In this document: piece by piece, positions 671-59,439 of the stretch
How the letters are laid out: every line of letters begins with the position of its first letter
How positions within the stretch are numbered: the stretch's first letter is position 1
Origin: Haliclystus octoradiatus
Lineage: Eukaryota > Cnidaria > Staurozoa > Stauromedusae > Haliclystidae
Reading direction: 5' to 3'
Length of the DNA stretch: 64,000 nt
Assembly (NCBI GenBank): GCA_916610825.1
Contig: OU744448.1
Span: forward strand, 33,622,493 to 33,686,492
Made by a program: the position numbers and the translations under genes
Notes under the pieces: generated by a model
The model's input: the letters and a program-made list of their open reading frames with translations, nothing else
Told to the model about the DNA's origin: nothing
Databases searched by the model: none

Positions 671-1025
671 CCCCTATGAAAAAGATCATTGAGTTCCTGG
701 ACTTCCTTAACTGTTTCTGAAAAGACTAAGAACAGTTAATCAATAGTTCATGAATTTTACATGGCCCAATTTTCCTAAAATGTTCATGAAACTCTATGAA
801 AATTTCATGAAAAAGTCCATGAAAATGGGGTCATCTAGCATTCTTGAACTACAGTTAATGAATTGTTCATGAACTCCTGAACTTTCCTGAACTTTGTTCA
901 TGAACTCCAATTTCTTCAACGCCATGTTATGAGATTCTCTATAAACAGGTTCTTCAACAAGTTGATGGGTTCTTTGTGTAAAGTGATAGTGATTAAGGAT
1001 GGTCCTGAACTGTTTTTTGTAGGGG
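671..1025. mobile_element. AGTTCATGAAC inverted-repeat element (family A), copy 1
   Basis: Ends CCCCTATG...GTAGGGG with TA on both sides. The interior is a run of 10-11 bp palindromic units. The right TA is shared with the next copy. Confidence 0.7.
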
Positions 1026-1027
1026 TA

Positions 1028-1614
1028 CCCCTGCGAAAACAGTTCAGGAGTTCATTAACAGTTTATGAACAGTTTATGAACAGTTAACAGTTCATGAACG
1101 TTAAATGGCCCCAAATTTCCATGAACTGTTCATGAACTGTCTATGAGGGTTCATGAACAGTTGAGGAGGATTATTAGGATTAGGCAAAGGAGGATTAGCT
1201 CAGATGGCAGAGCAACCGAACTTCAGATCGGATCATATCTGATCGACCGTGGTTCAAATCCCCCTAAGGTCAACTCAGCCTTAACTTTATCAGAAACATC
1301 AAATCAGTACCATCTGAGGATGGCGGATGGAATGGTGATTTGAACTGCATTGTGAGTAGCTGCGGCGTAACGTTGCGCATTGACAATCAAGACCTATCTG
1401 CCATGAAATCTGTTGAAATTGATCTGCAGTGTCGCGGCTGAGATCAACAAAGAGCGTTTAAAATCATTGCATCTAGAAATAGAGGAGTGGTACGGGTGCC
1501 TTCAGTACGGCGACACTGTCTACATTACTTTTTTTTATGAACAGTTCAGTAAAATTGGAGCCATTTAACATTCATGAACTGTTCATGAACTCCTGAACAT
1601 TTTTTTTGTAGGGG
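1028..1614. mobile_element. family A element, copy 2, interrupted by a SINE
   Basis: Ends match CCCCTGCGAAAA...TTTTTGTAGGGG with TA flanks. SINE copy 1 sits in the middle, so this element is older than that SINE insertion. Confidence 0.8.
1189..1537 (+). mobile_element. tRNA-derived SINE copy 1
   Basis: Starts with a tRNA-like head carrying A box TAGCTCAGATGG and B box GGTTCAAATCC, then a shared body of about 270 bp ending near GACACTGTCTACATTACTTT. It is inserted inside an inverted-repeat element (1028-1614). Confidence 0.85.
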
Positions 1615-2257
1615 TAATAATGTCTTATAGTGTGAGCCAACAAACAATGGAATAAGTATAAAAATCATTGAATTTAAGATAAACAAGAACAAAAACAACA
1701 ACAACAAATGTGTTTAATCAAATGGCATAGCATTCAATTCAATATTATCTTTGATATCATTATAAGATGTGAGAGGTCAGATAATATTTTCACAAATGTT
1801 TGCAAATATTTCATATATTCCAAGGAGAAAGTTTGAGTTGTAAGAAAATCAAGATTTTAGCCTGCAATATCAAATAAGATAGAATATATATAATTATATA
1901 TATAAAGCAAAACCTGTATATAACATTCATTAAAACGTGAAATTGTCGAGTTCATGAACAGTTCATGAACTTTCAGGCAATTTCACATTCATGAATTCAT
2001 GAACTCTTTTTAAACATTTTTCTCTTAATAAATTACATATTAAGATAAAGCAATATTCTCACTTTACTCTTTAACTTCTTAATGCAAATCCATAAGAACA
2101 ATACCGTTAGTGTAATGTTAAGTTTTATATACAGGTATCACAGTGGCAATGCTTCCCAGATGATGTCACTTTCCAAAAATGCAATGACGTCATGATATGA
2201 CGACCCTATCAAGATTGTATAATAAGAAGTAAGAACTTGTCAGTACTTTGCTGAATA

Positions 2258-2418
2258 CAGTCAAACCTCTATAAAGCGGCCACCTGTCTATAGTGATCAC
2301 TCTTGCAATGTCTAAAATAGTACTTTCTATTGAATCAAACATGTATATAGAGGTCATATGTCTATAGTGGTAAATTTATCTACCTCTTGTAGCTGGCTTT
2401 TATATACAGGTTTCACTG
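2258..2418. mobile_element. pogo/Tigger-like MITE (family B), copy 1
   Basis: CAGTCAAACCTCTATAAAG at one end and the inverted ...ATATACAGGTTTCACTG at the other, flanked by TA. Confidence 0.75.
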
Positions 2419-2777
2419 TATATCTTATTCAAATAATTTATTTTAATCTGCAATTTTGATGGTTTGTTTGTCAGTACTTAGCCCAAACTTTAATTTAATT
2501 GGGAAACAAAACATAGAAGGGACAATTCTCATGTGTAAAAAAATGACCAATTTTAATGAATTTTCAATGCACTGCTCATAAAAACGTATATGAAAAACAT
2601 GCCATTTGACATTCATGAACTGTTTATAAGATGTTCATGACCAGTTCATGAACATTTCATTAACATAGTAAATCTTTTACTGAGGATATCGCATACCAAT
2701 TCAAATGACAAAATATAAAGAATTTAGATTTAGCAATGTAAAAATATAACTGCATTACTCCACCTTGATACATTTGT

Positions 2778-2887
2778 CTAACACGAGTCTTGCATTGATG
2801 ATGAATCTAAACAGCGTCTTTCCGTTTTTGATACTTGAACACAAATTTTGTTACATCCGCCATTTAAAATGGAACAAAGTGATTCTC
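2778..2887 (-). CDS. NID: nidogen exon 19: C-terminal Cys-rich tail and stop
   Basis: After a poly-T acceptor the frame reads ESLCSILNGGCNKICVQ, then two more cysteines (RRC, DSC), and stops at TAG. This resembles the terminal NNGGC...C EGF of nidogens but is shortened. Confidence 0.88.
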
Positions 2888-5800
2888 CTTATAAAAAAAA
2901 AAATCAATAGTTCAGCAATTTGTGTTAGCTAACAAGATTTAATTGACACAGGATATTTAAGATATTGGGGGGCTGATCCCTGCAAAAACAGTTCAGGAGT
3001 TTATGAACAGTTCATGAACAGTTCATGAACGTTAAATGGCGCCAAATGTTCATGAACTGTTCTTGAACAGTTTATGAACAGTTCAGGAAAATTGGAGCCA
3101 CTTAACGTTCATGAACTGTTCATGGACTGTTCATGAACTCCTGAATTGTTTTTCTCAGGGGGAGTCTGTAACTTCGTATTAGAAACTCTTCTTTGTTGAG
3201 TAGTCTGCATATTATTCCTGCGAATGAACAGTTCATGAGTTTATGAAACGTTAAAGGAGCAAAATTGACCGGCAGGCGCCTCGCACTTGGGATCACGTGC
3301 ATGTTTATTGTTCATAACACAATGTACATTGTTGACATGAATTTAAAACAGATTAGGCCTGCGTATAACAATAGTTTCAAAGCGAGACGGTTGAATTACG
3401 CTAAGCATAAATTCAACTTGTGCTCGCAGCGGTCACCGGTCAATCTTGCCCCTTTAAATGGCCCAATTTTCATGAACTTGTTCTAATAAAAAGTTCATAA
3501 ATAAACATGGAAAGATCATGAAAATGGGGGACATCTGAAGGTCTGCCATTGACAATTTCAATAGCTTTATCACTGCCCAGGGGGTCTGACAAAAGTAGGA
3601 ATCCTGAAATTCTAGATTCTGGAAGGCTAGAGAAAATTCAGAAGAAAATTAATATTCTCAATGATTTATTGGTCAAACCTCAACAAAACAAATCAGTAGA
3701 AAACACAGAAACTCTTCTAGGACGTTGCAATTTCCGCAAGCAGACACTGTCTAACGCGAGTACCTGTTTAAGTCTTTTATGGTCAAATATCCTGTTATAA
3801 GCGGACAAATTCCCTGTTCTGCAGTCTTTGTTTACACAAAGTTATTTCTGTAAAACTTCTTACATATCATTGCAAACAAACTCTGTGAAAACAAAGCGGC
3901 AAATCGTAATGAAATTGATGGATGAAAATTCTTAATTCATAAACAAAACCGCATAGAAATTTATGAATTCATGAACATGCTTTAGCAGAGAAATCGCCAT
4001 GGTGATAGTGACACAATAAGACATTAATACTCACTGTTAGGACATGGTTTCACTGATTTAATGTCATATAATCGTCCGTCGCTTCCCATTCCGCTTGACA
4101 ATGCCGTTAACTTTTCTCCAGTGCTTTTCTTGATCCTCTCTATCATTCCAGATTTCCAATCTGTCCAGTACAGAATACCATTATGAATGGAAAGACTGAA
4201 GGGATAATGAGCCTAAGCCATAATAATAATTATTATAAAATCAAACGAGTGAAGCCTTCATTAAAGCCCTAATATTGATGAGGAGGATTAGCTCAGATGG
4301 CAGAGCAACTGAACTTCAGATCAGATCATATCTGATCAACCGTGGTTCAAATCCCACGAAGGTCAACTCAGCCTTGACTTTATCTGAAACATCAAATGAG
4401 TACTATCTTCTGATGGCGGATGGAATGGTCCAGAGGGAATTGCATTGTGAGTAGCTGCAGCGCTTCGTTGCGCATTGACAATCGAGACCTTTTCTGCAAT
4501 GAAATTTGTTGAAATTGATCAGCGTCACGGCTGAGATCAACGAAGAACTTTTAAAATCATTGCTCTCAGCGAAAAAAGCCACTCATCTAAAAATAGAGGA
4601 GTCGTACGGCTGCCTTTGGTAGGGCGACACTGTCTACATTACTTTTTTTACTAATATCGAAACGATATCAAGAAAATGCCACACAAACAATCTTCAATAT
4701 GTAATTCGAATGAATTTGAAAGTCATAATTTATCTATGACAAACGGTAACCTAGGTAAATCAGAACATTTCTTCAATCATAGTTCACCGACTCAATTCAA
4801 AGCAAGCAAGCTTGCAAGCTTTTCTCATATTGCACAAGATTTGTGATAATTTACAACTATATTGATATTCGTTAATTACGACCATAGTGATATGATGTTT
4901 GTCATCGTAAATGCACAGGGAAGAATTTGTTGAAAACTTGATATTTCCTTATCATAAATCAAGTATTAAACACTTTTTTATTCAATGTGGGTTATATAAA
5001 CACTTGGGTTGCTATGAGGCACTCAAAAGGCTTCTGAAAATCTTTTGCCGCTGCGGCTCTTGATTTTTTCAATTCTTCATTGTGCCTCATGATGCAACAC
5101 TCATGTCTATATAACCCATATTGCACAAGAAAGTGTTTAATATTTACATAACACCATTACAGTCAAACCTGTTATAATGGTCCCCATTTTACAATGTCCG
5201 CCTGTCTATAGTGGTCATTCCTGTAATGACCAAAAAAAATTAAAAACTCCAGCATTTTCTATTGAATAAACACTGTATATAAAGGCCATCAATCTATCTA
5301 TAGTCGAACCTGTTATAATGGTTACCTCTATACAGCGGCCACATGTCTATAGTGGTCACTCTTGCAATGTCTAAAATAGTGTTTTCTATTGAATCAAACC
5401 TGTATATAAAGGCCACCTGTATATAGTGGTCAGTTTATCTACCTCTCGTAGCTGGCTGTTATGTACAGGTTTCACTGTATCTATAATAGCTGGTTGTTAC
5501 AAACAGGTTTCATCGTAGGTTTCATAATATACCTCATTGTAGAGTGTTCGTCTTCTTTGACCATTATATTCAATACATGATATGGTACTTCTACCTGCAT
5601 CAGTCCAACATAATTCTTTATTGCCATGGTCAATCGTTAAACCATTAGGTAAAATTAATTCTGAATCAACAAGAACATGTCTGTTGCAGCCATTCATTGA
5701 TGCAACTTCAATCTTTGCTTTACCTCGAACCCAATCTGTCCAAAAGATCAATCTAAAATATCAAAGGAAAAATTATATTTATTCATTATACAAGGTTAGA

Positions 5801-8800
5801 GCCATCAATACCCCCGCGGAAATATGTTGAGTTCATGAACTAGTTCATTAATCTTAAATGGCCAAATTATGATGAACAGTTCATGAAAATTGGGACATTT
5901 AACATTCATTGATTATTTTCACTATAAAAAAAATTCAACAAAACGTTTCAAGTTTTAGATGGTAATATTCCCTTGTTTACCTTATTATTTTTTATCGTGT
6001 TGCTATTTAGCCATCGATAAACAAATATGTTTTGTTTGAGTGAAAATATTTTCCTTCAAAAAAGATCAAAGTGGCATCAAGAAATACTTTTGCCAAGTCA
6101 ATTGAATTTGCAGAGAATTTCATTATAAACATGATTCTAGCAGCAACGGGGTATTTAAAATGATAATCATGTGCGTGTTTATGTTACGGTTGTCATCTGC
6201 ATTGTTCCTGTGCCTGAAACAATGCTGAAACTTGAAATTTGAAGCCATGCAGAAGCCAAGACTGACATTGATCGTTGAGTTACGCTAAGCTTAATTCAGA
6301 ATTAAGCTCGTAGCGACTGCAAATCAATGTTGTCCCTTCAACGTAGATTTTTGACAAAATAGCAATTTCCAAATTATATAAGGAGTTCAATTGAAAGCTT
6401 GACATTGTTGACCGCAATAGAGCTGTCAATGCTGGCAAGGTCTTCATTCTTAAAGTATCTTTCATACCCATTAACATTTAATGGCTTTTTCAATGTGATA
6501 TTAATTTTTATTGAAAACTTGTGGAAACATTTTCAACAAATAGCATTTTCCAAATTCTGTAACGAAATTGAAATCAATTGAAACCAGTGACGCCATTGAC
6601 CATAACAGAACTGTGAATGCCGGCAAGGTTTTCCCACTTAAAGTATTTTTCAAACACTCACCCTTCAAACGGATCACAAACAATTGCTCTTGGATTCAAC
6701 AGACCTTTATTGATGATTACAGTACGATGACGACCATCTAATTTTGATATTTCAATTCGGTCTAATCCTGAATCTGTCCAGAAAATGTTTTCACCAAGCC
6801 AATCTACTGTTATTCCTGTAAAATAAAAAAAATAAAGAAAATAAATAAAAAAATATGGATACAGTAATTATCAATGAAAAATCAGTTGATTTCTACATGA
6901 AAAATAATATATAAAACTACCCCTGCAAAAAAAATCCATGAGTTCATGAACGGTTCATGAACTTCATGAACAGTTCATGCACAGTTCATGAACAGTTCAT
7001 GCACAGTTCATGAACAGTTCATGCACAGTTCATGAACAACTCATGAACTTCATGAACAGTTCATGAACATTTTTTTTGTTGGTTCATGAATAGTTTATGA
7101 ACAGTTCATGAATAGCCACAAAGAGTTCTTGAACACTTCGTGAACTCATGAACTTTTTTTTGCAGGGATAAAAACAAGGATCGCCAAAGGCGTGAAACTA
7201 CTTGTAGCAAATACGAATGTCTGATTTTTGGCGTTGATTAATCATTAATAATAAATTAACAGATTAATTCCATTGAATGTAAACTCTTATACAAATGTAT
7301 ATGAAAATGCTCCTCGCGTTGGGTAAAACAGAGTAGAATAAAAAGAATAATAAATAAAGATGAGGCCTTTAAGCCTTTTCCATTACTCAGAGATTCATGC
7401 GTTTGATTGCGATCTTATCAGACTGCATATCAGTGTAGATTGCATAAATATGCATTATGTAACCCTGTGAAAAACATTTCAGGAGTTCATGAACAGTTCA
7501 TGAACAGTTCATGAAAATCGAGGACTGTTTTTGCAGGGATCAGCCCCCCATTCATGAGCTGTTCATGAACTCTTGAAATGTTTTTTGCAGAGGTAATTTT
7601 CCTATGCTTGACTGTATACAAAAAGACTTTTAATGGTATATTTTTCATACAAATAAATATGAAAATGAAAACGAAAATGATCTTCAGACGGTGATAATAT
7701 TTCCTTTGTTCTCTATTATTCATTAACAACTAAAACATTTACCTTCTGGATAAACAAGATCAGAGACAATCAATTTTTGTTGCGAACCATCCAAATTTGC
7801 AGCGCTAATTCGACCATTTGAAATATCAGTGAAATATGCACGTTGGTTACGACAGTCATAATCAACCCCAACTAAGATACCATCGTAATGACTTCTTGCT
7901 ATGTTACCATATCCCATTTTGACATATGGTAAGGATAAACGTTTGAGATTTCTGCCTTGTGTAAACACCAAGAATTCATTCCCAACTGAAAGATATAAAG
8001 TCAACAAAATTATTTATTTTCGTTAAGCAACCTGGATAGCTTAACTTGACTACACATTGTTTAAATGTGAATTATCACGAGATACAGCACACATCAAGTC
8101 AAGTGTGTAAAGGCTATGAAAAGATGTGACATAGATTTTACTTTGAGACTTGATAGATTTTTAACATGCCCCTTGAAAATAACAATTTTTATCAATTATT
8201 ATTTGAAAATATTAGATAAAAAGTTAAAATATGTTGATATATGAAAATTTGATGAAAAACAGGCCATTTAATGTAGCCAATGAGAATCAAATGTTGCCAA
8301 TCAACTTTTATCTAAATACTGGAGATTGAATTCCTACTGAAATTTTGAACGATTGTTCAAAATTTATCTCAGCTTTCTTGGCTCATGCCCTTGCGAAAAA
8401 AATTAATCGAGTTTGTGAACTTTACAAAAAGTCATGAACTGTTAATGAACACCTTATAAACAACTCATAAACAGTTCAGGAAAGCAAAATAACCCAATTG
8501 TCATTGAACATTTTTCATGAACTTTTCATGAACATCGTATAAGCAACTCATAAACAGTTTGTGAATTTCAAATCACCCAATTTTCATTGTACGTTAGACA
8601 GACACAGTATTCCATCAAGACACCTGTGAAACTATTAGTTGAGTTTATCAACAGTTCATGAACATTTCATTGACAGTTAATGAACTGTTTTCCTATGGGT
8701 GTTTCATGCGACTATAAAATAAAACCTAATGTATTGCTTACCCCATTGACACATCTTTCCAAAATAGCCTAACTGGCATTTACAAATATTATCTGGTAGA

Positions 8801-11800
8801 CACAATCCACCATTAAGACACCTTGGACATACAGCTATAGAGATAAATAAGATAAAATAGAATTTAAGGCAACATTAAAACCTGTCATAGCAGGAAAGCA
8901 GTCTATTCTTACTGATACCATCCTCAGACTGTCTATGTGATTGATAAGTTGATTATGAACTTTCTCATGCACTGTTCATTAAGCTGTTTATGAAAACGTT
9001 CATGAAAGGTTTTCACGGGGTAATCAACATCCAACAAAGTCGTTTAGAGCAGGTGCTTCAATCATGTTAACATAATCCAATCATTGAAAGAGTTTTATTC
9101 GTTTTGTGTAAAAAGTAAGGTAGATGGTGTCGCCCTACCGAAGGCACCCGTACCACTCCTCCATTGCTAGAGAGGTGGCTTTTTTCGCTGAGAGCAATGA
9201 TTTTAAACGCTCTTTGTTGATCTCAGTGGCGACACTGCAGGTCAATTTCAACAGATTTCATGGCAGATAGGTTTCGATTGTCAATGCGCAACAATGCACC
9301 GCAGTTACTCACAATGCAATTCCCTCTTGACCATTCCATCCGTCACTCCTAAGATGGTACTCATTTGATGTTTCAGATAAAGTCAAGGCTGAGTTGACCT
9401 TCGGGGGATTTGAACCACAGTCGATCAGATATGATCCAATCTGAAGTTCGGTTGCTCTGCCATCTGAGCTAATCCTTGTATGTATGTTTTGTCTGCCATA
9501 CCAACATAGGTGTTTATCATTTGATTGGTGTGCAATAGGATTTGATGCATGTACAAAACAGCGTATAAAAATATTATTATTCAATAGCGCATTATTCAAT
9601 CAACTATCAACAAAGTACCTTGATTGTAAAGGATATATGTGTCGTTTTCATTAATTTAGAATATTTATTCATCCAATGTCTCCTTTATGCCCCTGCGAAA
9701 AAAGTTCAGGAGTTCATGAAGAGTTCAGGAACTGTTCAGGAACTGTTCATGAACGCCTGAACTGCTTTTCCCAGGGGCGGTGTAAAATTCAGAGAAGCGT
9801 TATCTTTCACTCTTTTTTTATTTAAATCTTTATTCTTTTTGTCAAAAACTGTATAAAATCAGTGTAGAATAGGCCTGGCATCCTCTAACTGAGTTCTGTC
9901 CATATAGAAAGGGTGATTCTGTCATTAACATTTTTATTCCATTAGACCCAGCATTGATCAAAAACCATGAACCAAGAGCTACGAACAAACGCAAGATTTT
10001 CAACCCAGTCATTATCACTGAGTTTTGGATAGTTGATTGATTTATTTCAACCAATTCAGGGTAGATGAGTAATATTATACATAAAAATTTGATATTTACA
10101 TAAAAATTTGATATTTACATAGAGTTGAGTTACATACATGATATGAGTTTATTTTTTTAGATACTTTTAATTGTTTCAAACGATTAAATCAATGAAAAAT
10201 ATGATGGAATAGAAGGACCTGTTAATATATGAAAGATGTTATGGGCACTTAGATTACATTCCTTACATATACATTGTTCATTTGGCTGATGATATGTTTT
10301 GTTTGTGCATATGTAACAGTGAAAAGCATGAACCGAAGTACGTGATAATAAATACTTGTTTGGTTGCTCTTCTTGTTTCCACCATGGAAGATTCATCATG
10401 GGAGCACTGAGTTCTGGATAGAATTTATGTATTATTGTTCAGTTCATGGAGGCAGCTGCTAGCTATGACATGTTTTGACAAAGACTTGCAACTTTATGAC
10501 AATTAATTTTTTGTGACGGTGTGTGAATCATTTGCCAATTATTTAGGTGTTATTTTTGCTGGGCAGAAAATCATGCATTGGTTAACAGACCTCATAAGAA
10601 ACAAACCTAAAGGCTGGTACACAGGCTAAAATTATTTAATATTTAAACTTAGCCGTTTAAACAGTTCAGGAGTTCATGAACGTTAAATGGCTCAAATTTT
10701 CCTGAACTGTTTATGAACAATTTATGAACAGTTTATGAACAGTTCAGGAACAGTTCAGGAACAGTTCATGAAAATTTGGGGCCATTTAACGTTCATGAAT
10801 TGTTCATGAACTCCTGAATTGTTTTCCGAGGGGTGGAACTTACTCTCTGCAAGTTAATATAATATTTTAAGCTCACCTATGCAATCTCTTTTGTTTCTAG
10901 TTTTTACAAAACCCCTTTTGCATTTACATTGATAAGAACCGTCATATTCAATGCAGTCTGAATTTTTTCCACAGGGTGATACTTCAGAAGAACATTCTTT
11001 TATATCTGAGAGAAAAAAAAATTATAGAATCAGAAAACGAAAAAACACCAAAATAATACTATTCCATGTTGTAAAAAATAGGGTGCTTCTCATTGCTGAT
11101 TGCGGATTCTCCATTGATAAAATTTGATGAGTTCATGAAATTTCTATGCACAGATAATTAACAAACAGTTCATGAAATTGAAGGACAGTTCATGAACCTC
11201 AAATGGTCAGTTTTTCATGGAATTTTCATGAACTGTTTTCAAAGGGTTTCACAGAGTTGCTTGATGATTGAGCCAAATCTTTAATAGCCGGTTTCATATA
11301 CCCTATTTACTCTCAAAAGAATATAGTCTGTTATAATATGTTTTGCTGTTCTATCAATTATTGTGTCTGTTTGGTAAATAATTCACCGTACGGCGTACTT
11401 GTGCAAGGTTTCTTCGCCTTCTGTGTGACATGCGACGGATGTATTGTTTTGAATTTTTAGTTATTTGTCATTACTTCGGAATTTTATGGGGTTGTGCATT
11501 ATCTCTAAATGGGAAACCCCCAACAATATATTTTGGGGAGAATAATGACGGGGTTCTGTTGTGTTTCATGGATTTGTTGTACTCCTGAATTCAGCGTCAC
11601 ATATCCAGTCTTTGTTATGCACTTCATGCATACAGTATAGTACCATCAAATGAGTACCATCTGAGGATGGCGGATGAAATGGTCCAGAGGAAATTACATT
11701 GTGAGTAGCTGAGGCGCATCGTTGCGCATTGACAATCAAGACCTGTCTGCCATCAAATCTGTTGAAATTGATCTGCAGTGTCGCGGCTGAGATCAGTAAA

Positions 11801-14800
11801 GAGAATTTAAGATCATTTCTCTTAGTGAAAAGAGCTACTCCTCTAGAAATAGAGGAGTGGTACGGGTGCCTTCGGTAGGGCGACACCGTCTACATTACTT
11901 TTAATAACAGTTATAATGTAAAACAAAGATGTATCAATACAACAAGTTGACTAAATAAGCAAGTTATTTAGTAATAGATAGATACATAAAAATCAAAACA
12001 AATTCATGAGTTTATAAACAGTGAATGAACTTCATTAACAAATATCTATGATTCAATTATACCACCACTAATGTAATGGATTCATGAACGATCAATAAAC
12101 ATTAATTATGCGTCAAGTATCGAAACAATCATGCTTGTTAAACGGTATACATTTTACAAAACTGCTGTAAAAGGAAATATAAAGGTTCTAAACTATCACT
12201 CAACATTTTTTGTAAAACTCGAGAGATTTTCGAATGTTGTTCTAGTAATTTGATTGGCTAGCTCCGGTGTTTGGATCACGCAAGCCAAAACAACTCAAAA
12301 GCTGAAAAACACTCGCCCTACGAGCTCTGTTTTTCTGATGCTTTCTTGTGTCTCCCAACACCCCGCGTGTTGGCATCAGAGAACCCAGACACGGCTGCCG
12401 TGCAGTAACCCTTTAATACAAACTTCATTGCTTCTTACTGTTTCTGATTAATCATATATTACCCACTCACCTACACATGAGCTTCTTTTGCTTTGATAAC
12501 CATTTTGACATTTACATGTGTATGAGCCAGGCAGATTAAAACATTTCATATTCTTTCCACACGCTTTAAAATCTCTATTACATTCATTGATATCTAAAGT
12601 AAATATACTATAGCATTACACATCCATTGTAAAAATTGTTCATGAACGACAAATGGCTATTGAAGGTTCACGGAAAGTTCATAAAAGGTTTATTAAAAAC
12701 CAAAGATGAGAATTCAAGTTTCGAATTCAATAGGAATAAGGTAGTATCTAGATTTTAAAAAGTACAGCTAAAATCCGCAGCTAAAAGTCTGAAAATTCTC
12801 ATATCTGAAAAACAAACCATTCAAGGTTCATGAAGAATTCATGAACGTTGAGTTTTACTAATAAAACACATTCAAAATTACTGTTGTCTTTGATTTTTGT
12901 TATCAAATGCTTTAAGAAGAAGCTACTCATCAAATCGCTTTAAAGCATAAGCAACAATCAGCTGCAATTATTACAGAGACTGGAGAAACGCAGCATTAAA
13001 TTCATTAACTGCCAAGCTACAATTGAATTCAATCGTCTTTGTTTGAACTAGGGTGTGATGCCAACATTCGCCAAAGTTCAATCCACTAAGGCAAAAAGGT
13101 GGAAACAATCCACTGAGTCCTACCAACAAGACATAATTAGAGAAGAAATATGGGTAACCTAGTAAGTTCAAGTAATTAATTAGAAATAAATAAATAATTT
13201 ATAGTATAAAAGTTAATTAAATAAAATAAAATTTCTTTCACTCTTGAAAATGGTCACAGATGATGGCCGAAACGCATTCAAAATTACTGTTGTCTTTGAT
13301 ATTTGTTATCAAATTCATGAATTTCTTCGAAAAACATTTCAAGATAAAGGATAGCGACAAAAAATAAACAGACTTAGGTTTAAACAATGTTTCACAATAG
13401 CTCAATTGCATCTTCAGGTTAAAAGGAATAATCAAAGAGCTAAGTCCAACCCTCAACACTCAGAAAGATTCCGTCCGGTCTAGGCTATTTGTATAACTCT
13501 ATCTAAGTAAATAATATATTTTCTTTGTTGTATTGTTTTGTATCCAATTTTATATCATGTAAATTTTCACTATAAATACTTGCAATTTTAATATGTTATT
13601 CCTTTTAACCTGAAGATGCAATTAAGCTATTGCAAAAACGTTGTTTAAACCTAGTCTGTTTATTTTTTGTCGCTATCCTTTATCTTGAAATTCTTACGGT
13701 TTACGGTAAAAGGGCTTACGGTATGCATAGGTTGCTGTGCTTTATCCCAAAATTCTTGTTGGAGGATTGTTGCCCAACTGAAGCATAATGTGAGTTCATT
13801 CTAGCTTTGTGAATGTCTCTCAACATCCACGGTTAATTGTTTTCAGGGGTTCACATAACCTTAGAATTGAAAAACATCAGTTATTTTCCAGCTGCCAGAT
13901 TTGGACAGGCTTTGATTGCTTTACTTCACATTCTGTTTTTCATAGCTAAGGAAAATATACTGTTCCAATTGTAGCATTTTAAGGTATCAAATTTCACGAT
14001 GTGTCCTATTTCAAGAGCAAATCAACTTAGTTGAAACATTCATTATTGCGTACTTCTTATTTCAATTAGCCCAGCGATGAGGATGACTCATTTTTTCATA
14101 TGAACCATTTATGAAAAAAGGACCTATGATTATTTACCTTGACAATATTTTCCATCTCCTTCGTAACCAGGGTTACAATAACAAGCAGCATCACCTTGTC
14201 CATTACGGAAGCATGATGCTCGTTTGTGGCAATCACAAGGTTTGTTGCCTAAAATAACATTTTGTAAAATACATCAACACGTTTACATAGGCTACAATCA
14301 ATAAAGTCCATAAAGTTCATTAAATATTCATGAAGTGTCCATGAAACTTTGTGCTATTTCAAGTTTATAAACTGGTTCATTAACTGTGACATGCGAAGCC
14401 CAAGAAAATTTTGCATGAACATTTAATAAAGTCTGTGAATGGTTTATTAACTGTTCCTGAACTGTTCATCCCCTCCCAAAAAAAATGGTGATGAATTTCA
14501 TGAACTCCCCTGCAAAAAACAGTTCAGGGACAGTTCATAAAAATTTGGACCCATTCAACGTTCATGAACTGTTCATAAGCTCCTGAAAGTGTTTTTGCAG
14601 GGGCTGTTCTGAATTGTTTGGAAAATTTTATGACTAGTTTGAAATTCATGAACAATTATCTAATGACTCATGATTGTAGCTGGTAATTCATGAATTGGTA
14701 ATAAATTTATGTGAAACTTCATGAATGGTTCACAACTGTTTTGAACATTTCATGGGTTAAGTCATTAGAAAACTTATTAGCATGATATCTCCAATGACAT

Positions 14801-17800
14801 ATTATTCCTGAACTTTTTTCTGACCTAGCTGACTAAACTTTCATGAACTATTCATGAACTGTTAACGAAAAGTGTAAAATCGAACGTAAATCAACTTATT
14901 ATAAATTAATATTATCATAAAACCATATTATAGTAATCATGAAATGATCAATGTATACTTTTTAAAAGGGAGGAAATTTTTGCTTAAAGTATCGAATAGT
15001 GAAACTATTTTCAAAGGAAAATCTTGTTCAACATTATAAATTTCAATATGCTCCTGCATAAAAACAGTACATGCCAAACGTTAAATGGCCCCAATAGGCA
15101 GGTCCACTAAAAATTTCAAAGTTGATTTTATTCGTGTTTCGGATATATCATACCCGCAGAATTCCATAAAACTGATAAAAATTCCAAAAAAATTTCCAAA
15201 AACCCTTCATTTTTGAGTTTTAAATCCATAAATTTCGTAGAACGTCAAAACGATTTGTGATTGGCTTGCTATATTATGACGTCATTTCCCGGACAGAACA
15301 TAATCACACTCCGCTAAACAATGGAGACTTTAGCATTTTTGTAATTATTGGTATCGTTGAACGTCAAATTTAAATGTAATCATTTCCATTAGCACTGCTG
15401 TTCCTGTTCAAAATATTGAAGGCTGACTTCAAAAAACTTATTACGGTGACCTGAAATATTCATCAATGGAAATCGCTCTGAAATATTTATATCAATTTAT
15501 GTTGTTTTTGTCTACGTTCGAGCATGGTTCGAGTGTCGAAGCGAGAAGGAACAAGGATGGTAGACTAGCTTAGCAAATTATTTGAATTTCAAATAACACA
15601 CATAAAGTTTCAAACAAGTTGGAAAATAATTGGATGGAGTTGTATGATCTACCATTTATTAGCAAATTATCCACGTTATTTTCTTGCAAATCATATGGCC
15701 TATTATAGGATCAAATTTATTGTAGCTATGATTCTACCATGATTCTACAAAAACTACATTCACTGTCTTCGCTGATCAATGGGATAAAATATATAGCTAA
15801 ATATAGCTACTACATCAATATCGTCCATTGCCTTCACACAAACTGCATGATTAATCATTGGTCCAAGTAAATATTTGTTAATCAATGCAAAATGAATCAT
15901 AAATTGCTTTTCGGTTTTCAGAAAATTATACGCCTCGACGTAAACTGTCATAGCATGCGTGATCGATGCGTAAAATATTTCATTTAAACGGCAACTTTAT
16001 TGAATTTGAATTCTGATTTACTAGAATAAATCCAAATCTAGAATTGGTAAAGCGTTAATAGGTCCATTTAAAGTGTTTGTTAATTCAAATAAATGCACAC
16101 TGAATGCGATTTCACCGTCTTATATCTGGTGATAATAACACAAGCAACAGTTGATGATGCATGACAGACGAAATAAAAGAACGAAGATTTGATAAATAAA
16201 AATAACACTACTTTGATGCTCGAGTGATGATCTAAGCCGTTTATATATGAATGAGGTTTCTTCTCTAAATATCAAATATATATATATACATTTCCAAGTG
16301 AATGCTGCCTACTTTTTGGTGAGACTTTGGTAAAGACGAGTGAACCTTTTCGTTTTGATGTGAACGAGCACTTTGAAGGTCTTTGACAAAAACAGTGTGC
16401 ACGTGTAGCCTGCGTGCAGACTCAAAACAAAACTTCTCTAAAGTGTAGATCGGCCTGGCCGAGAACTTTTGTTCGTTTGCGGTCGGGAACCGCGAGAGAA
16501 AGATATGGAAAAGATTTGTTTTGTTTCGCTACAAAAAGGACAAACCGAAAAAAGAAACAAAACTTTACCCTTAGTCTCGTTTAAAAATCAGCGGTTCTGA
16601 TTATACTATTCACAAAAAATTTGGATAAAAAATGACGAATTGATGGATGAACGGTTTTGGATATCAAGTCATGATAAGTAGTAGATTTCTCACTTTGTCC
16701 GGATTATGACGTCACATTCCTTCATCCACCAAAACTTGCCGTTTCGTAACCATGGTTACGCAATGTCATTTGAAGTCAGATATCTCGATGGTTTGTCGAT
16801 ATTTTTGGAAAAAAAAATCGGGGATATTAAACTTATCCTTTGATCTTCGTATGGATATGTTTAAAGTACATACTTAAATTTTAGTGGACCTGCCTATTGT
16901 CATGAAATGTTCCTAAACTGTTCATGAAATGTTCATGAAAAATTAAATAGAAGTTGGGACATCTAACTTTCATGAACAAGTTCATGAACAGTGAACAGAC
17001 TCTTGAACTGTTTCTTGCAAAGGTGGCTAGTGTGAAGCAAGATATATCGGATAGGAATATAGTTGCCAACGTCTCCACAAACAAATAGCTGAACACAAAG
17101 CAATCGGTATTCATGTAACAGAACATCACTGCCAGAGAGCACAGAAAATCTGAATGAATCGTTTTCAGTTTTACAATGTCATTGAAAAACCAAGTTTAAT
17201 TAAAATAGTTGCTATGGGTCCCAAGGGATAGAACTAAATCAGTTGGGCCTATCCCTATATTGAAAGAAATTGTAAACTTTATTAACTTCATTAATTAGTA
17301 TAGATTAGTTAAGTTTTCATGCCAATTTTCATAGACTTGATAATGGCTTTCTGTTTAAGTCGAAACGCTGTCCAAATAAGAAACAAACTTAAGCGCTAGC
17401 ATTTCTGTTGCGAAATATATGTCTATCTAAACACTATTCTTGGAATCAACAGTTTGATTTCAAATAAAAATAACTGTCAGTGTTGAATTTCACTAAATTG
17501 GTTAATTAATGTTGTATAGATAATTTAAATTCTTACGTTCACAAATTGTTCCATTTCCAAAATAACCAGACTTGCAAACACAAAGCTCTACGTTTTTGAT
17601 ATCTTGACATTCTGCATTTCGATCACAAAACCTTCCATTACAGATAACACGTTTCCCTTTCGTTGTATCAACTTTATCAAACTTTGGAGTGTTGACAATA
17701 TCTTCATTATATGTCGTAGTAGGTTGTTTAGTGTTTAAATCTTCCGTTGGGATCGGCGGATCGATGATAAATGAACCAATAGATTCTGTAGGACGGTAGT

Positions 17801-20800
17801 TCTTTTCTTCCTTCATTGCTGTAGTTTTATGTAGGGTGGGATACAGTTTTTTACTAGTTACTACATTTTCCTCCTCTGTTGTTTTCTTATAATAAGGAGA
17901 TGTCTGTCTCTTTGCTGGTGTCAATGATGTAGGTCGGGCTATAATAGAGTCTGTTTGTGCTGTAAAAAAGCGATGGAAAATTGGGGTTATAAAATATTAA
18001 TAGAATTAATTAATAAACACAATTGCCAAGTGACAGCACATCCTCCTGGCAAATAGCCGTAGACTAACGCGGCATATCTGAGTTCCTTTAACACGGTTTT
18101 AAGAGCTACATTGTACGGGTATGCCACATTATTAATCTATCTTGAAAGTGATGAAAAGAGAGGCTGGAAAAGAACAGTTCTTAAACTTTGTGTAAAGTTT
18201 GAATAATATATTTTTTTGAATGGCACTTGTATTGCATACTAGCAATGAGTTACTTGCGTTTCTGGGTTTAATGTGGGTCCATCAAAACATTCAAGTAAGT
18301 GAAGTGGTCAAATAAATCATGCATTTGTATCATTCAACAGCTCCTCCCCGTCCGAGCGTACAAAATCCCAAAAGCCGTGAACTTGCAGCTTCAAATGAAA
18401 GGCTGTGCAATCAGAAAGAGCACATGCGATTTTACTGAGCGGTCATGATTGATTGGGGAGATCCATGGGGAGGTCCCCCACAAATAATAGCAGCAATGAC
18501 GTAAAGCCGCAAAGGCCTCAAAATGAAAAGATACATTTTGTTTCGATACAAAGAGTAAGAACATAAATGAAATAGAAACCCAAATAAAACACAGATCATA
18601 AAATGGTGATTCGAATGATACTACTATTGATCAATTTGATAGGGAATTGTGAGAGTTATTAGCATTTATTATTTATTATTATTTATTATCATTTTGCATA
18701 CGTTTGAAGGGACTCTCTTTTATATGTTAGGATATAGAGGCAACAGGAAAATAGCTCTGCAATGCATTCATTCACTTTTTGAATAATCATCAACAGTCCC
18801 AAAAACTGTCAAACAAGAAATAGTTATTCAACTTTGATGCAATAACAAAGGCATTGAGGGCCTGGTTTTTAACAAGTGAGTCCCTCCAGATACGGTGGAA
18901 ATTACTTGACTTTAACACTTGCCGATTGTTAACTTCCTGGGTGTTTTCGCTGTCATTTGACTAACGCATAATGCTATGAAAGCTTAAAGGTCAATTGAGA
19001 AGATGGTATTGTAAATGTTTGCTTGAGAACATATATAATAAAACAACAAATAGAATAGGCCAGAGAAAATTAAAAGCATAGAACTTTAACAATCTATTCA
19101 TATGACCATACTCTATGGTCCCAACACGAACAGTGAATTGGAAATGTAGAACGAATTCAGTTAGAAACACAGCAATGATTATGATATGTGAGCAGGGCTA
19201 TTATGAACAAAGCATGAACTGTTCTTCGTTCGTACAAATTATTTATTTATATACGAATTTTGTCCCTTATTTCAGGAATTCCGTAAATTTGTTATGCATC
19301 CCTGTGAAACAGTTCATGAACAATTTCTAGTAATGAGTTCATAAACAGTTCATGAAAAAGTTCATAAAAATAAAGCCATTTAAAGTTCATGAACTAGTTC
19401 ATCAACAGTTCATGAGCTCAACACAAATTTTCAGAGGAGCAGGGAAATATAGATAACAAGGAACATAAGCTTTACCTAAGCAGCTTTTAGTGAATTTATC
19501 TTGTCCATTTTTACACATGCAAATAAAACCAAGCGGAGACGACTTCAAAACCAAACAATGAGAATAAAGAGGACATGTCAGCTGTTCTCTTGTCGTGCAG
19601 GGCGGCGTTACCTCTGCAAGAAATAAAATCAATAATAGTATTTACATTAGTTAAAGTATCAATATTCAGACAACAATTTAAATGAAAAACATTTAAATTC
19701 AAAGCCTTTATGAAAACAAGTTTTTGACTTCAACCCCTGCAGAAAACAGTCCAGGAGTTCATGAAAAGGTTCATGAACAGTTTCATGAAAAGGTTCATGA
19801 ACAGTTCATGAACGTCAAATGACCCCAATTTTCATGGACCGTTCATTACCAGTTCATGAAGAGTTTGTAAACTTTCATGGACAGTTTATGAACAGTTCAT
19901 GAAAACTTGGGACCATTTAACGTTCATTAACTTTTTATGAACTTTTCATGAACTATTCATGAACTTTTCATGAACTATTCATGAAATTTTCATGAACTAT
20001 TCATGAACTCCTGAACTGTTTTTTGCCGGAGAGAGATAATTATCCTTACCTGACATTGTTTGCAAAATCGTTGAATATTGAAAACGTAATAATTTTCTTT
20101 GTGGATTAAACACAGTTCTCTTCTTAGAAAATTCTAGAAACATTTTATCAGGAATTGTTTGGCCAGTATATTCTTCAAATTGAATCATACGATTAATTTT
20201 ATATTTGTACAGTTTTCCATCAGCATAAAATTGCAAATCAGAGTCGCTAACAAAATGACCAAATCTTTGATGTATAAACTCTTCTTTGTGGTTTGAATAG
20301 ATGATTCTTGCGTTGTTTCTAATGACTGGACTACGTCCGTGAATTTTTGTATCAAGTCGAAAATAGCCAGCACTATTTTGACCAAGAAGAATTTGATTGA
20401 TAAATAGAACTTCACCTGATAACAGAAATAAATTATTATTCTCTTGAAGCACAGGTCTTTTTATTCCCCACCCCTGCGAAAAACAGTTCAGGAGTTCATG
20501 AACAATTCATGAACAGTTTTAGTCTGTGTTTATAGACCGCGATTCATTCACAAAAGAATAGGGTCTGTGTGTTTTGCACAGTTCTCTGTCCAGCCACTCT
20601 ACGAAAACGTAGAGCGGAAGTTTCTGATCGATGCCTGGTAAATCTATTGTTCTTAGATAATAAATTCATCACCTCCGTTCGATCAATTAATTGTCATAGC
20701 TACGAAGCCTAAAATAGAACTTATTGCAATCATGTCAACTGAAGTGAACAAAGTAATGTGAGAATCCCGGTGAGAATCATCCTAATCTTGCATAATTATG

Positions 20801-23800
20801 TGACATCAATCTTATTCTGATACGAGGCCCGGACAGAGAAACCGAGCAATTCACACAGACCCTATTCTTTTGTGAATGAATCGCGGTCTGTAACGCAGGC
20901 TAGAATAGTTCATGAATGTTCAATTTTCATGAATTGTTCATGAACTCCTGAACTGTTTTCGAAGGGGCAACATAGGTAGGATTTAGGATTTGGATGTTGG
21001 CAAAATAGAAAGTCATTTGGCCATCCTCAAGATGTTGCTTGTTGTTGACTTGTGTTGAATTTCGTTTTATTTGATTTTCATGACATTTAAAAATGTTGAC
21101 AACATTGTGAATATTCTATTGTTCTCAAACTAGTTACACACACTTTTTTATTTTGCCAACATTGGTAAAATTTGATTAGATTTGTAATTCTATATCTAAA
21201 TGAGTCGTCCTGTGTTACCCCCTGCGAAAAACAGTTCAGGACTTCATGAACAGTTCATGAACGTTAAATGGCTCCAATTTCCTGAACTGTTCATGAACTG
21301 TTCATGAACAGTTCATGATCCCTCACAGACAGCTCATGAACAGTTCATGAATAGTTCATGAAAATTTGGGGCTATTTAACGTTCATGAACTGTCCATGAA
21401 CTGCTCATGGACTGTTCATCCAAATGCCGAAAAACCATATATGATGTTTATTTTGTTTCGATCGAGGATCAATAATATCAATGTAATTAAAATATGAAGG
21501 TATAAGCGGTTGATTTGAGGTTGTCAAAATGAAGCTAGAATCAATATTTTCCATCTTTACAAGAAATATCACATTCATAGATTTCTAAACAGGAGAACAG
21601 TATCAAATGTGCACAATGATCTTCATTATGTTTTCTTTGCAAAAATTCCTAATTCCATTTTAAATGGGAAAAGGTCTCAGCGAATCACAGCACATTTTTT
21701 GTAGATTATCATGACTGTTCATCAACTCATCAACTCATTTTGTCCATGGGGAAATACGAAAAACAAATATACCTGTTTCGAATGTGATTGTTGTTTTACA
21801 AGATGCATAAGGTCCAGTTACATCAAACCCTTTCACGTCTGCTGTTGATTTTGTTAAACTAAACAACCAACTCATAAAACCAATGATTTCTGGTATAAGA
21901 GAAAGCGTTTTACCAGAAACACCTTCGACTGGACTGATTGATACAAAAGAACGACCTTTTGAAAATAGCATGCTTATATCAGCGTTATTAATTCTTGATG
22001 AACCAATCCAACCAGAAAGCTTACCAACTGAGCTAACAAACGAATCTATAAAAATAAGATCAATTATTATAATGAAAACGTGGGTGTATCATTAGTTTAT
22101 GAACAGTTCATGAAAAAAGTTCATGAAAATTAGGCCATTTAACATTCATGATCTGTTCATGAGCTGTTTATAAGGTGTTCATGAGCGATTAATGAAAGTT
22201 TGTAAAGTTTATGAACTATTCATGAACTGTTTGTGAACTGTTTATGAGGTGTTCATGAGCGGTTCATGAAAGTTTGTAAAGTTTATGAACTATTCATGAA
22301 CTATTTGTGAACTGTTTATGGGGTGTTCATGAGCGGTTCATGAAAATTTATAAAGTTTATTAACTATTCATGAACGGTTCAGAAGGTTCAAAACAGTTCA
22401 TGAACAGATCATGAACATTTCATTAACTCCACTAATTATTTTGCAGGGGTTAATCCAATTTTCATGAAATCTGTGATAGAAATAATTCCAATCATTTACT
22501 CATTTCATACCAATTTCATGCAAAAGTACAATATATGAGTTAGAAATCATAATAATAGGGGATTCTCCTGCAGTTCAGGAGTTCATGAACATTCATGAAC
22601 GTTAGATAGTTTACCAAACTTAAACAGTTTATGAACAGTTCATGAATGTTAGATGGTTTACCCAACTTACATAAACAGTTTATGAACAGTTAATGAACGT
22701 TAGATGGTTTACCCAACTTACATACACAATTTATCAACAGTTCATGAACGTTAGATAGTTTACCAAACTTAAACAGTTTATGAACAGTTCATGAATGTTA
22801 GATGGTTTACCCAACTTACATAAACAGTTTATGAACAGTTAATGAACGTTAGATGGTTTACCCAACTTACATACACAATTTATCAACAGTTCATGAACGT
22901 TAGATAGTTTACCAAACTTAAACAGTTTATGAACAGTTCATGAATGTTAGATGGTTTACCCAACTTACATAAACAGTTTATGAACAGTTAATGAACGTTA
23001 GATGGTTTACCCAACTTACATACACAATTTATCAACAGTTCATGAACGTTAGATGGTTTACCCAACTTACATAAAGAGTTTATGAACAGTTCATGGACCA
23101 TCAGGCACAGTTCATGAACGTTTATGAAAATAAGGGGCCATTTAACGTTCAAGAACTGATCATGAACTGTTCATGAACTCCTGAATACTTTTTCCTGATT
23201 GATTCTGAATTCAGGGTCCAACAAAGTCCAGAAACTTGGAAACCTGGTTTGAGGAAGGCAAAGAAAATTCAGAAGGAAAAGGCAAAATGCAGCATATAAA
23301 TATAAAATAATTAGAAAAATATGAGAAAAAAATTGATTTTACAGTTTAATGTCAGAAACAGTACTCAAACGTTTATCTCAAAAGTTGAGGTTTGCGGAAG
23401 GTCGAAACATTTGCCGAACCCTGATTCTGATGTATATCAACTGAAACATTGACTAGTAAAGGTTTGAAGCGGATTCAATAAGGAATGACACAGATATCGG
23501 TGTTTTAAAGAACCTATTTATGCCACAAGTTTATTTTTGTGACTTCAATATTCATTTTTGTCTCTAAATAATTTAAAATAATATTGAAAAGTTTGAAAAG
23601 ATTGAATATTTACGTTACAAAATTAAACGCGCAGAAGAAATAGATTTTTTAAAACATCGATATCCTTCATTTCTTATCGGATCAGCTTCAAACATTTTAC
23701 CAATTCAGTTGATATACATCCAAATCAATCATTACTTTAAAAAATATGTTTTTAGTAGAATCCCTCCTGTTGCTATCAATGTATGAATACCCATCAACAA

Positions 23801-26800
23801 TTTCTATACATATTTCATTAACTATTGCATGGATCAGCCATGCCTTTTCTTGAATGCCTAAAATAATTGTGTTACTTACTATCAGAATACCTAATACAAT
23901 ATTTCCCATTGCCAATATGTCCAGGTAAGCATTTACAATGATATCCAGGCCATTTATTTATACATTCAGCATTTATAGCACAAATGATACCATCATTTTG
24001 ACATTCGTTAACGTCTACAGGGTAAGTAAATTGATAATGTAAGGCACTCGTTATATTGTAAAAAGAAAATCAAACTATATCTAATAATCTGGCAAAGAGT
24101 AGACAATAGACTGGTTCAAAAAAAATGCACAATTCATTTTCTCATTTGACGTGTTCTAAAAACAAGTTGTACAAACTTTGAAGTTCATCCGACATCGGGA
24201 AAGGAGCTCCCAAGGTCCCTCTAAACTAATATGTGAAGTTAATGGGAAAAACGCTAATATTTTTTAAACGCAAATAACTTAATCCTTACAATTTAAATTA
24301 TGCAAAATTAAATATAGGGATATGAAACTGACATTGTGAATAATTTCAATAGATTATTTATAATGTTTGAATTTTAATAATTCCAAGAACAATAGACGAC
24401 TTAGAACGATGCATTGAAAAACGTGGTTTCCACTGTGAAAATCGCATTTTCGACAAGTCAAATTGTGTGGTTTTAATTTGTCAACATCAAAACATTTACT
24501 GAAGACATGTTAGCCGCTTCTTCAGTCACATCTTTTCGAGAATTGTAGCTTGGAGATTGTTGCTCTGTAGTTCAAACCATGCTCAACATTAACCTTTGTA
24601 CCAGCCCAAAGGTTTATTGAAAACAAACGCGTGTTTGTCAATTAATATGTAGTGTGTGAATAATTTTAAAAAATGTTTAGATGTTATATTTACTGGGCAG
24701 AAAATCACACATTAGTTCACGTTCCCTTGTGATTCCATATTAATAAATTACGGCTGGTGTGCAGGCTGCGGGAACATTGTCTTTACTACAACCTTGATAA
24801 AAATAAAATAATTAAACTAAAGAATAGGGCTCTTTCACTCCTGGGGTCTGTAATTGATGTACCAACAACATTACCCCTACCAAGATAATAACTTTATAAT
24901 TAAATTTAATGTAGTATACTCACCCGGCACTAATGGTACAATCATACTAGCTGTTGTTTTCGATTCTAAAGAATAAAACCAAATATAAATTAAAATTTTA
25001 AGTTACGTTTAACAGCTCTAAACTGGGCAAAAATGTTTTTCTTGAATGTTCATTGTCAACTTTATGGTGATCTATAAAATCTCAACAATGCATTGATCAA
25101 TGTTAACATCAAAGCAAACACCTATTGTCTTTGCTCTATCTTGAGCTTTACCTTATTGTCTTGAATTTATAACACACTAGGAATTGCTAGTGTTCGACTA
25201 ACCAATGGAAAGTAATAAAACGTCGGAAAAACTTGCCATTAATAATAAAACTAATTATCTTCAAAAAACTATTTATTATAAATTTTAACTTATTAGAAGG
25301 CATCGTCAAAGCAAGTAATTTGATATGTAGTATTACCAGGTGATTGGTTAAGTTGTCTTCTCTTTCTTGAACTTCCTGCAAAATGAAGTGTTTAAAAATC
25401 AGAAGTGCACCTTTTCCAAAGAAATACAATAAATGACAACAAAACTATATCTGGCTCGGTGTACCCAAATCCAGAGAAAATGTTGTGGTCTTGACTGAGT
25501 ACCAAAATAAATAGTTTGCAGATAGGTATATACTATAGGCCTACAGGGTCCTGATCCTTCAGCATAGCCTGAACTGAATCGCTACTGAAAATCTACTGGA
25601 AACCACAATGAAACCCACAAGACACTTAAATGTAGATTTTTCTCATTTTACTGAAAACTATTGAAACACATCTTAATATTTTCAAAATTCATAGTTGTAA
25701 TTACAGTGTAACCCGCTTATGTACAATTCGGATAAGCGGAATTCCCGCTTATCTGCAACCTGGGTTTAAAACCCATTAAACAATTTTCTGGTCAAGTGTT
25801 TGGTAAACAATTTCGGATAACTGCAAATTCGAATAAATGCAATGAAAACCGATCGCACTTTTGACTTGTACTTGAGCGGGTTACACATACTGTAGCACAC
25901 TTTAAAATTTCTACACCAGCTCACCTTTATCCCTCCCTTCTAAAGTAGGTTTGTAGCTTTCTATTCCTCGGAGTAGTACAAACTTGGTAGTTGAAAACCT
26001 TGAGTAGAAATACAAAAATACAATTTTAATTCACAGTTAGGGGATTTAATTTTAGATTTCAAGAATCCAGAATTTCATCCTAGATCAGACTTTTGTATTT
26101 AAAGGTACCTATAGATCATTATTATTATTAAAGTATGAACAGTTTGAATAGGAAATTTACATGTTAAAGGTTACCCCTGCGAAAAAAGTTCATGAATCCA
26201 TGAACCGGCTTATGAATTGTTCATGAACTCTTTGTGACTGTTCATGAACTGTTCATGAACGGTTCATGAACCAACAAAAAAATGTTCATGAACTGTTCAT
26301 GAAGTTAATGAATTGTTCATGAACTGTGCATGAACTGTTCACGAAGTTCATGAACTGTTCAAGAACTCATGGATTTTTTTCGCAGGGGTATCATCAAAGT
26401 TAAAACAATTATATTATCATTGATAATTGTTTTGTTTTTTTAAAGACCAGAAACCAGCCGATGTAATCAAGCAAGACCTTTCACCGCTAAGTAACTAAAT
26501 TGACATTGAAATAAGACCAATTTTTACTAGTCCAAAGATTTTAGACCAGCCAATACATAAAGAAGTAAAACCTGACATTGTATCCAAACAAAGCGTTGTT
26601 TACCACTTTAAGTGTGGTCAGTGTGATATTGACTATGTTAGCTACACATGCCGGCACCTACATCAACTCATTGATGACCATCATTTTACGGCTGTTGAAA
26701 ACATTTAAGAGATGCCCATAACTTTGACACAAAAAATAATGACATTTTACCATTTTTTAAAGTTTTGTCTTGTGATAAAACAAAATTTGAATGTTTAATA

Positions 26801-48422: not shown

Positions 48423-48618
48423 TGTAAGATTGTATTATAGAGTTTTAAGGACGAAATAAGACAAACGACCAAACATCAAGATAACTTGTGTAACTCTGTT
48501 TTATTAATCATATACGTGTTAGTTTTACAACGCTGTGCAATACACTCCGGTGTGCCTAATTTACAACTAAGTGTGATTAGTTTAATGACGTTGTAAATAT
48601 TAGTATTATTAATTATGA
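48423..48618 (-). repeat. 3' LTR of the gag-only element
   Basis: 196 bp, with a 6-bp insertion (TTTAAG) relative to the partner. Its edge supplies the stop codon of gag, showing that the internal region was deleted right up to the LTR. Confidence 0.88.
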
Positions 48619-49682: not shown

Positions 49683-49799
49683 AATAAACCACGAAATAAA
49701 TACTGAGTTTTCGCTGGATTATAACCATGTAAGTCCGTTGAACATTAATAACAATGATTCAATAAATAACTTTATCTATTGAACTTTATAACTGCGCCA

Positions 49800-59240: not shown

Positions 59241-59439
59241 CGTTGCAAAACTGTTCACGAGTTCATAAACAGTTCACGAGCTTTATGGATAGCTTATCGG
59301 TTCATGAATAAATATTTCAACCCACGTCTGCTGTGATATTTTACCGTCCTCCTTGATGTCTGGAAATGGTAATTACCCGTTAGATTGTTAATTTGTGCTC
59401 TTCATACATAATACACAGTTCATTAATAGATAACATATA

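Follow-up and report, generated by a model that had tools for sequence, protein, structure and literature searches.

The 64,000-nucleotide stretch analysed here, referred to below as the window, belongs to contig C4 (OU744448.1, positions 33,622,493-33,686,492) of the genome of the staurozoan Haliclystus octoradiatus, which amounts to 261.9 Mb in 33 contigs. Its reading frames yield G2F and SERTA matches that pass the Pfam cut-off and an EGF match that does not; these are domains of animals, in keeping with the source. The subject of this report is a family of short inverted-repeat elements in the window (Table 1), whose interiors contain arrays of 11-bp palindromes. The initial annotation, made from the letters alone, took the family for a TA-flanked mobile element of mariner/Tc1 type, in which the number of palindromic units sets the length.

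The ends of these elements are fixed. The exact 19-base terminus CCCCTGCGAAAAACAGTTC occurs 1,233 times genome-wide (649 + 584), in every case starting with CCC (CCCC), and the same letters read backwards occur not once; within the window there are 11 matches with at most three mismatches, against 0.01 expected, so that the shared termini of the initial annotation hold both locally and across the genome. The exact double unit GTTCATGAACAGTTCATGAAC is present 6,283 times (3,086 + 3,197), again with a backwards control of 0. Two exact termini and six exact double units fall in the window, a content several-fold above the genome average. With the copy at 26174-26388 as the genome query, at least 2,747 first-look candidates were obtained, 40 of which were scored to give 115 match rows; BLAST match counts are lower bounds throughout. 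Left and right ends were paired throughout the window and the fetched loci within limits of 55-320 bp, with at least two units demanded, and the resulting 94 pairs span 66-313 bp. Copies longer than 320 or shorter than 55 bp, those with fewer than two units, those lying 10 bases or less from the edge of a locus, and duplicates were excluded. The window copies 671-1025, 1028-1614 and 20471-20967 are accordingly outside this set, in which the copy starting at 7462 is paired with its inner end. Short, non-coding, numerous, with inverted ends and target duplications, the copies have the features of miniature inverted-repeat transposable elements (MITEs), and at 66-313 bp they would be too short to hold a transposase gene. 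Six of the ends that found no partner in the pairing analysis look like truncated or rearranged copies. The flank of one fetched locus, L035, resembles a host gene by eye.

The interior has a simple grammar. An arm begins with the 13-bp terminus CCCCTGCGAAAAA, often continues with CAGTTCAGGAG, and then runs into 11-bp units, TTCATGAACAG; the other arm is the complement of these. The array unit is an 11-bp palindrome, AGTTCATGAAC, with or without fixed boxes, and the subterminal repeats are present in both direct and inverted orientation. The unit TTCATGAA occurs 162 times in the window, a density of 2.5 per kb versus 0.21 per kb (22 in 104.6 kb) around loci with DDE_1 transposase matches, and its commonest spacing is 11 bp, seen in 26 of the 79 window spacings below 40 bp, with 10 bp seen once. 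One subfamily carries a GTTAAATGGC...AAATTT box together with its inverse (GTTAAATGGC/GCCATTTAAC), and the other, represented by 6920-7168 and 26174-26388, is without it. When 112 ends were examined, 46 of the 55 box-bearing ones had a terminus-to-box distance of 33, 44, 55 or 66, so that the distance shifts in 11-bp steps. Among the 94 pairs the unit number ranges from 2 to 20 and follows element length with r=0.96, a correlation partly built in because the elements consist of units, which span a median of 51% of an element. Folded as single-stranded DNA, two copies gave -63.4 and -73.8 kcal/mol (z of -11.4 and -16.9); this hairpin may be a by-product of the two inverted arrays. The picture of an inverted-repeat mobile element with palindromic units of varying number is thus supported, the units proposed as 10-11 bp palindromes prove to be 11-bp ones, and the inverted box is confirmed. 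That unit number sets length agrees with the 11-bp steps and the correlation; it fails for two of the longest copies (587 and 497 bp), which owe most of their length to nested insertions.

In the 587-bp copy, most of the length is contributed by a short interspersed element (SINE) of about 373 bp, and the ATGAACAGTT letters on either side of the SINE also occur within the element's own unit. The SINE's likeness to tRNA was judged by eye, and ARAGORN, run with the bacterial code, found no tRNA gene. Further copies of this SINE lie in the window at 4281-4649, 9110-9476, 46318-46685 and other places, as well as in many fetched loci, with identities of 77-95% among pieces of at least 129 bp. The 497-bp copy owes most of its length to another hairpin element (20530-20893), whose 54-bp arms are 91% complementary. 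A third long copy, at about 22566-23195, has gained length by multiplication of higher-order units of 51/149 bp. Two arrays in the window are built of related letters: at 22105-22449, 74-bp tandem units of the element's palindromes have a right terminus at their end, with no left terminus seen, and at 59262-60646 a satellite-like array of 1.4 kb, with periods of 22, 88 and 146 bp, is built of TTCATGAACAAATAAAGAACAG, a sequence akin to the unit of the element, and no terminus was seen inside this second array.

What does insertion of the element duplicate? Among 35 pairs unselected by flank, the 2-bp flanks are identical in 22, where 2,000 shuffles gave a mean of 4.2 and a maximum of 11. The same pairs agree at 1 bp in 9 cases (11.4 expected), at 3 bp in none (0.9) and at 4 bp in one (0.1). 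These pairs are what is left of a 51-pair set when 16 pairs picked as non-TA are removed; of 20 non-TA loci that were fetched, four (L114, L116, L127 and L129) yielded no pair. For termini so picked, the 2-bp flanks agree in 15 of 16 pairs, as TG, AT, TT, AA, TC or CT, and for termini selected for TA, a TA is found on the far side in 30 of 43. In the whole set of 51, which is poor in TA because of the 16 pairs picked as non-TA, 37 agree (AT 7, AA 6, TT 6, TA 5, TG 5, CT 3, CA 3, GA 1, TC 1), and agreement at 3 bp is again absent (0/51). TA precedes 314 of the 1,233 exact termini and two A/T bases precede 788. Of ten window copies that were checked, eight carry the same 2 bp on both sides: TA in five, and GA, CT and CA in one each.

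A nested empty site points the same way. At locus L015 one copy lies inside another copy of the same family. When the flanks of the inner copy are joined, minus one AA, they give gap-free alignments of 103, 100 and 103 bases with the uninterrupted copies of L112, L010 and L124, at 84-85% identity; other rows contain gaps. Insertion therefore duplicates 2 bp of loosely AT-rich sequence, with no specificity for TA. TA on both sides, as the initial annotation had it, is true of the four copies that it named (1028-1614, 6920-7168, 7462-7593 and 26174-26388) and not of the family as a rule, given the GA, CT and CA duplications and the TA count before exact termini. The annotation would have called the family a dispersed simple repeat if copies genome-wide lacked shared termini and TA flanks; the termini are shared genome-wide, and TA flanks are no general feature. 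TA-specific insertion and, with it, a mariner/Tc1-type source are not supported, as the 2-bp duplications vary in sequence. If the assignment proposed below is right, selection of TA-flanked copies by eye can misplace a family's superfamily.

Which transposons have ends starting with CCC and make 2-bp duplications? According to published accounts, animal TRC elements, which belong to the CACTA superfamily, have both (PMC1636069, PMC4298943); the 2-bp duplication is given for 7 of 14 copies (PMC1636069), and the ends of SmTRC1 contain an internally repeated motif (PMC1636069, PMC4298943). We think it probable that the present family consists of non-autonomous CACTA/TRC-type MITEs, with an interior made nearly entirely of putative subterminal binding repeats.

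The CACTA elements of the same genome bear on this assignment. There are 36 Transposase_21 matches, and at four of them 4.8 kb reaching upstream was read. Three of the four sampled loci have units of about 11 bp, in both orientations, clustered beside a CACTA motif. The units are AGTTGTGAAAA in family F1 (L130), CGCGTAAAAAT in F3 (L132) and AACCGTGAAAA in F4 (L133/L134), all different from the MITE unit. The best 8-mer count per 250 bases is 7, 6 and 8 for F1, F3 and F4, against shuffle maxima of 3, 3 and 4. Homology boundaries are stronger evidence than such clustering. For F3, 29 of 43 rows start at query positions 22-24, with CACTA at 24; for F1, an inverted end occurs at a distance of about 7.3 kb on contig C1. 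Among the 21 places with an F4 array, 16 (the query among them) have a Transposase_21 match no more than about 5 kb away, and one more has a match at 10.7 kb. From the F1 and F3 boundaries and the proximity of the F4 array to Transposase_21, arrays of units of about 11 bp adjoining the terminus are a common end structure of this genome's CACTA elements. On the side, F4 has 21 end copies (L133/L134 plus 20 further places), 17 of them at 96-100% identity to the query, which suggests that F4 was recently active, and dispersed pieces of about 149 bp that match the F3 end (the L132 end plus 42 further rows) are possibly a second MITE family of subterminal units.

Several observations weigh against placing the family with the CACTA/TRC elements. 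At the fourth sampled locus, L131 (F2), the roughly 3.4 kb upstream of the frame contain no array, and the best 8-mer count is 3. Clustering alone is no proof, because counts of at least 6 occur in 5 of 30 DDE_1 loci as well. Only 21 of 52 rows in the F1 end search start at CACTA (query position 36-37), and this reduces our confidence in the assignment. The three F1 copies read at both ends have duplications of 3 bp (TAT and TTT) and 4 bp (ATTT). Because F1 starts with CACTA and makes 3- or 4-bp duplications, we regard it as a cousin of the MITE family and not as its mobiliser. Finally, the 5' flanks of four of the 36 matches revealed no Transposase_21 element bounded by CCCCTGCG; these flanks held only weak CCCCTGCG matches, each with 2-3 mismatches and away from any array, and a lone TTCATGAA. 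A stretch of 5.2 kb between two exact termini was also set aside: it holds five short pairs, together with a left and a right end separated by 757 bp. The flank of L131 contains a frame with a DUF5641 match.

One would like to know how well other explanations fare. That the family is a MITE of some other superfamily, known or unknown, which makes 2-bp duplications of free sequence and resembles CACTA elements by convergence, we consider rather unlikely. The autonomous partner missing from the four Transposase_21 flanks, a terminus (CCCCTGCG) that differs from CACTA, and the mainly 3-bp duplications of F1 would all fit such an origin; set against them are the recurrence of subterminal arrays of about 11 bp in local CACTA elements and the combination of CCC with 2 bp, which is the published TRC signature. 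One named candidate, ISL2EU (PHIS), for which the source gives an AT duplication in an A/AT/T context and ends that are usually GG (PMC4482050), is at odds with the varied duplications and the CCCC ends and was dropped. A Tc1/mariner MITE, the view of the initial annotation, is very improbable. It would account for TA/TA in five window copies and for the count of TA before exact termini, which is above the base-composition expectation, but not for perfect 2-bp duplications in nearly all of the pairs picked as non-TA; moreover, in the 30 examined of 97 loci with pogo-type DDE_1 matches, no CCCCTGCG end pair was found, and four of the 30 had ends of another type, CAGT, which matched well and were flanked by TA.

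Membership among foldback-like elements, such as P/Galileo or the FB elements of Drosophila, has a similarly slight chance. The Foldback and Galileo elements of Drosophila belong to another superfamily and make longer duplications (7-9 bp), whereas here agreement at 3 bp is 0/35 and 0/51. The long, internally repetitive inverted repeats are the point in common; in addition, the ends of Galileo are reported to contain multiple binding sites for the transposase, and a foldback element is reported to have seeded a satellite (PMC3688188, PMC4079207). Foldback elements are a good functional analogue, but it is on the duplication that membership breaks down. A dispersed simple repeat or satellite without a transposon is next to excluded, for although the same unit has grown satellite-like at 22.1-23.2 kb and 59.3-60.6 kb, there are fixed termini genome-wide, 2-bp duplications far in excess of shuffles, and the nested empty site in L015. 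Equally improbable is that the palindromes are kept for a host transcription factor, the element spreading regulatory sites. The unit itself invites the idea, since AGTTCATGAACT consists of an AGTTCA half-site, nuclear-receptor-like, in inverted repeat, TTCATGAA fits the TTCnnGAA of heat-shock elements, and the exact double units are thousands in number; the predominant spacing of 11 bp differs from that of heat-shock elements, which is 10 bp, and transposon-specific binding fits better because different CACTA families here bear different units.

How might a CACTA/TRC-type MITE of this build move? Each copy would amount to two transposon ends in head-to-head orientation, with hardly any sequence in between. 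A CACTA-type transposase supplied in trans would cleave at the CCC ends and join the element to a 2-bp staggered cut in a loosely AT-rich target. The palindromic units would be bound either by a DNA-binding partner, TNPA-like as in plants, or by the transposase itself, with the two ends bridged; units about one helical turn apart would present roughly the same face of the DNA. Because the units would be equivalent, their number could change without loss of the substrate, and replication slippage or unequal exchange could add or remove them in 11-bp steps. For plant CACTA elements, direct and inverted subterminal repeats are described that serve as TNPA binding sites, work in cis in excision and are capable of forming stem-loops (PMC2613891), and by analogy we infer that the units here are predicted binding sites for the mobilising machinery. 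More tentatively, and with somewhat less than an even chance in our estimation, the family may be a transposon reduced to operator arrays, its body almost entirely copies of one predicted 11-bp palindromic binding site at intervals of one helical turn; anything from 2 to 20 such sites would make a substrate, the site could escape as satellite, and a TRC-type CACTA lineage would have let the number of sites evolve freely. If the CACTA/TRC assignment is right, CACTA-type mobility would be possible with little beyond subterminal binding sites, the copies would be a natural substrate series differing in site number, and there would be a path from transposon ends to satellite arrays. A literature search turned up no title on a CACTA MITE made of subterminal repeats, which does not prove absence, and a search with the exact unit letters returned only works of unrelated title.

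Table 1. Copies of the element family and associated features in the window (window coordinates).
Feature	Positions	Length	Strand	Remarks
Copy	671-1025	355 bp		Diverged; duplication TA/TA; right TA common with next copy (1028-1614)
Copy	1028-1614	587 bp		SINE nested inside; duplication TA/TA
tRNA-like SINE	1163-1535		+	Within copy 1028-1614; ATGAACAGTT flanks on both sides; BLAST copies
Copy, GTTAAATGGC box	2977-3161	185 bp		Duplication GA/GA
Copy, box-less subfamily	6920-7168	249 bp		Duplication TA/TA
Copy	7462-7593	132 bp		Internal terminus 7527-7539; duplication TA/TA
Short copy	9690-9777	88 bp		Flanks TG/CG
Short copy	14507-14603	97 bp		Duplication CT/CT
Long copy	19734-20031	298 bp		Flanks AA/AG
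Copy	20471-20967	497 bp		Different hairpin nested, arms 20530-20583 and 20840-20893; duplication CA/CA
Exact left terminus	21219-21237		+	No right end seen
Degenerate copy	~22566-23195	~0.6 kb		Ends placed by eye; interior enlarged by 51/149-bp higher-order tandem units
Copy, best preserved, box-less subfamily	26174-26388	215 bp		Duplication TA/TA

Two other features of the window may be recorded. An open frame of 369 aa on the minus strand (48609-49718) has gag-like zinc-knuckle letters near its end, as judged by eye, and no Pfam match, and a pentanucleotide array of TTATG extends over 545 bp (44464-45008) with 108.6 copies.

The family can be set beside four known groups. With the TRC elements, SmTRC1 of Schistosoma and Spongebob of Hydra, it has in common the CCC ends and 2-bp duplications; TRC elements measure kilobases and carry a Transposase_21 gene or remnants of one, whereas the MITE family is gene-less and mostly repeats. 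The local CACTA families F1, F3 and F4 likewise have a terminus followed by units of about 11 bp in both orientations, but their ends start with CACTA, their units differ in sequence, and F1 makes mainly 3-bp duplications. Plant CACTA elements in general make a 3-bp duplication. Two of them, En/Spm and Tgm, have short direct and inverted subterminal motifs, as here, though these are motifs of 12-20 bp around a coding interior, and the soybean element makes a 3-bp duplication (PMC2613891). Foldback, Galileo and Tetris of Drosophila resemble the family in their long repetitive inverted repeats and variable modules, and in the satellite seeded by one of them (PMC2955051, PMC3688188, PMC4079207).

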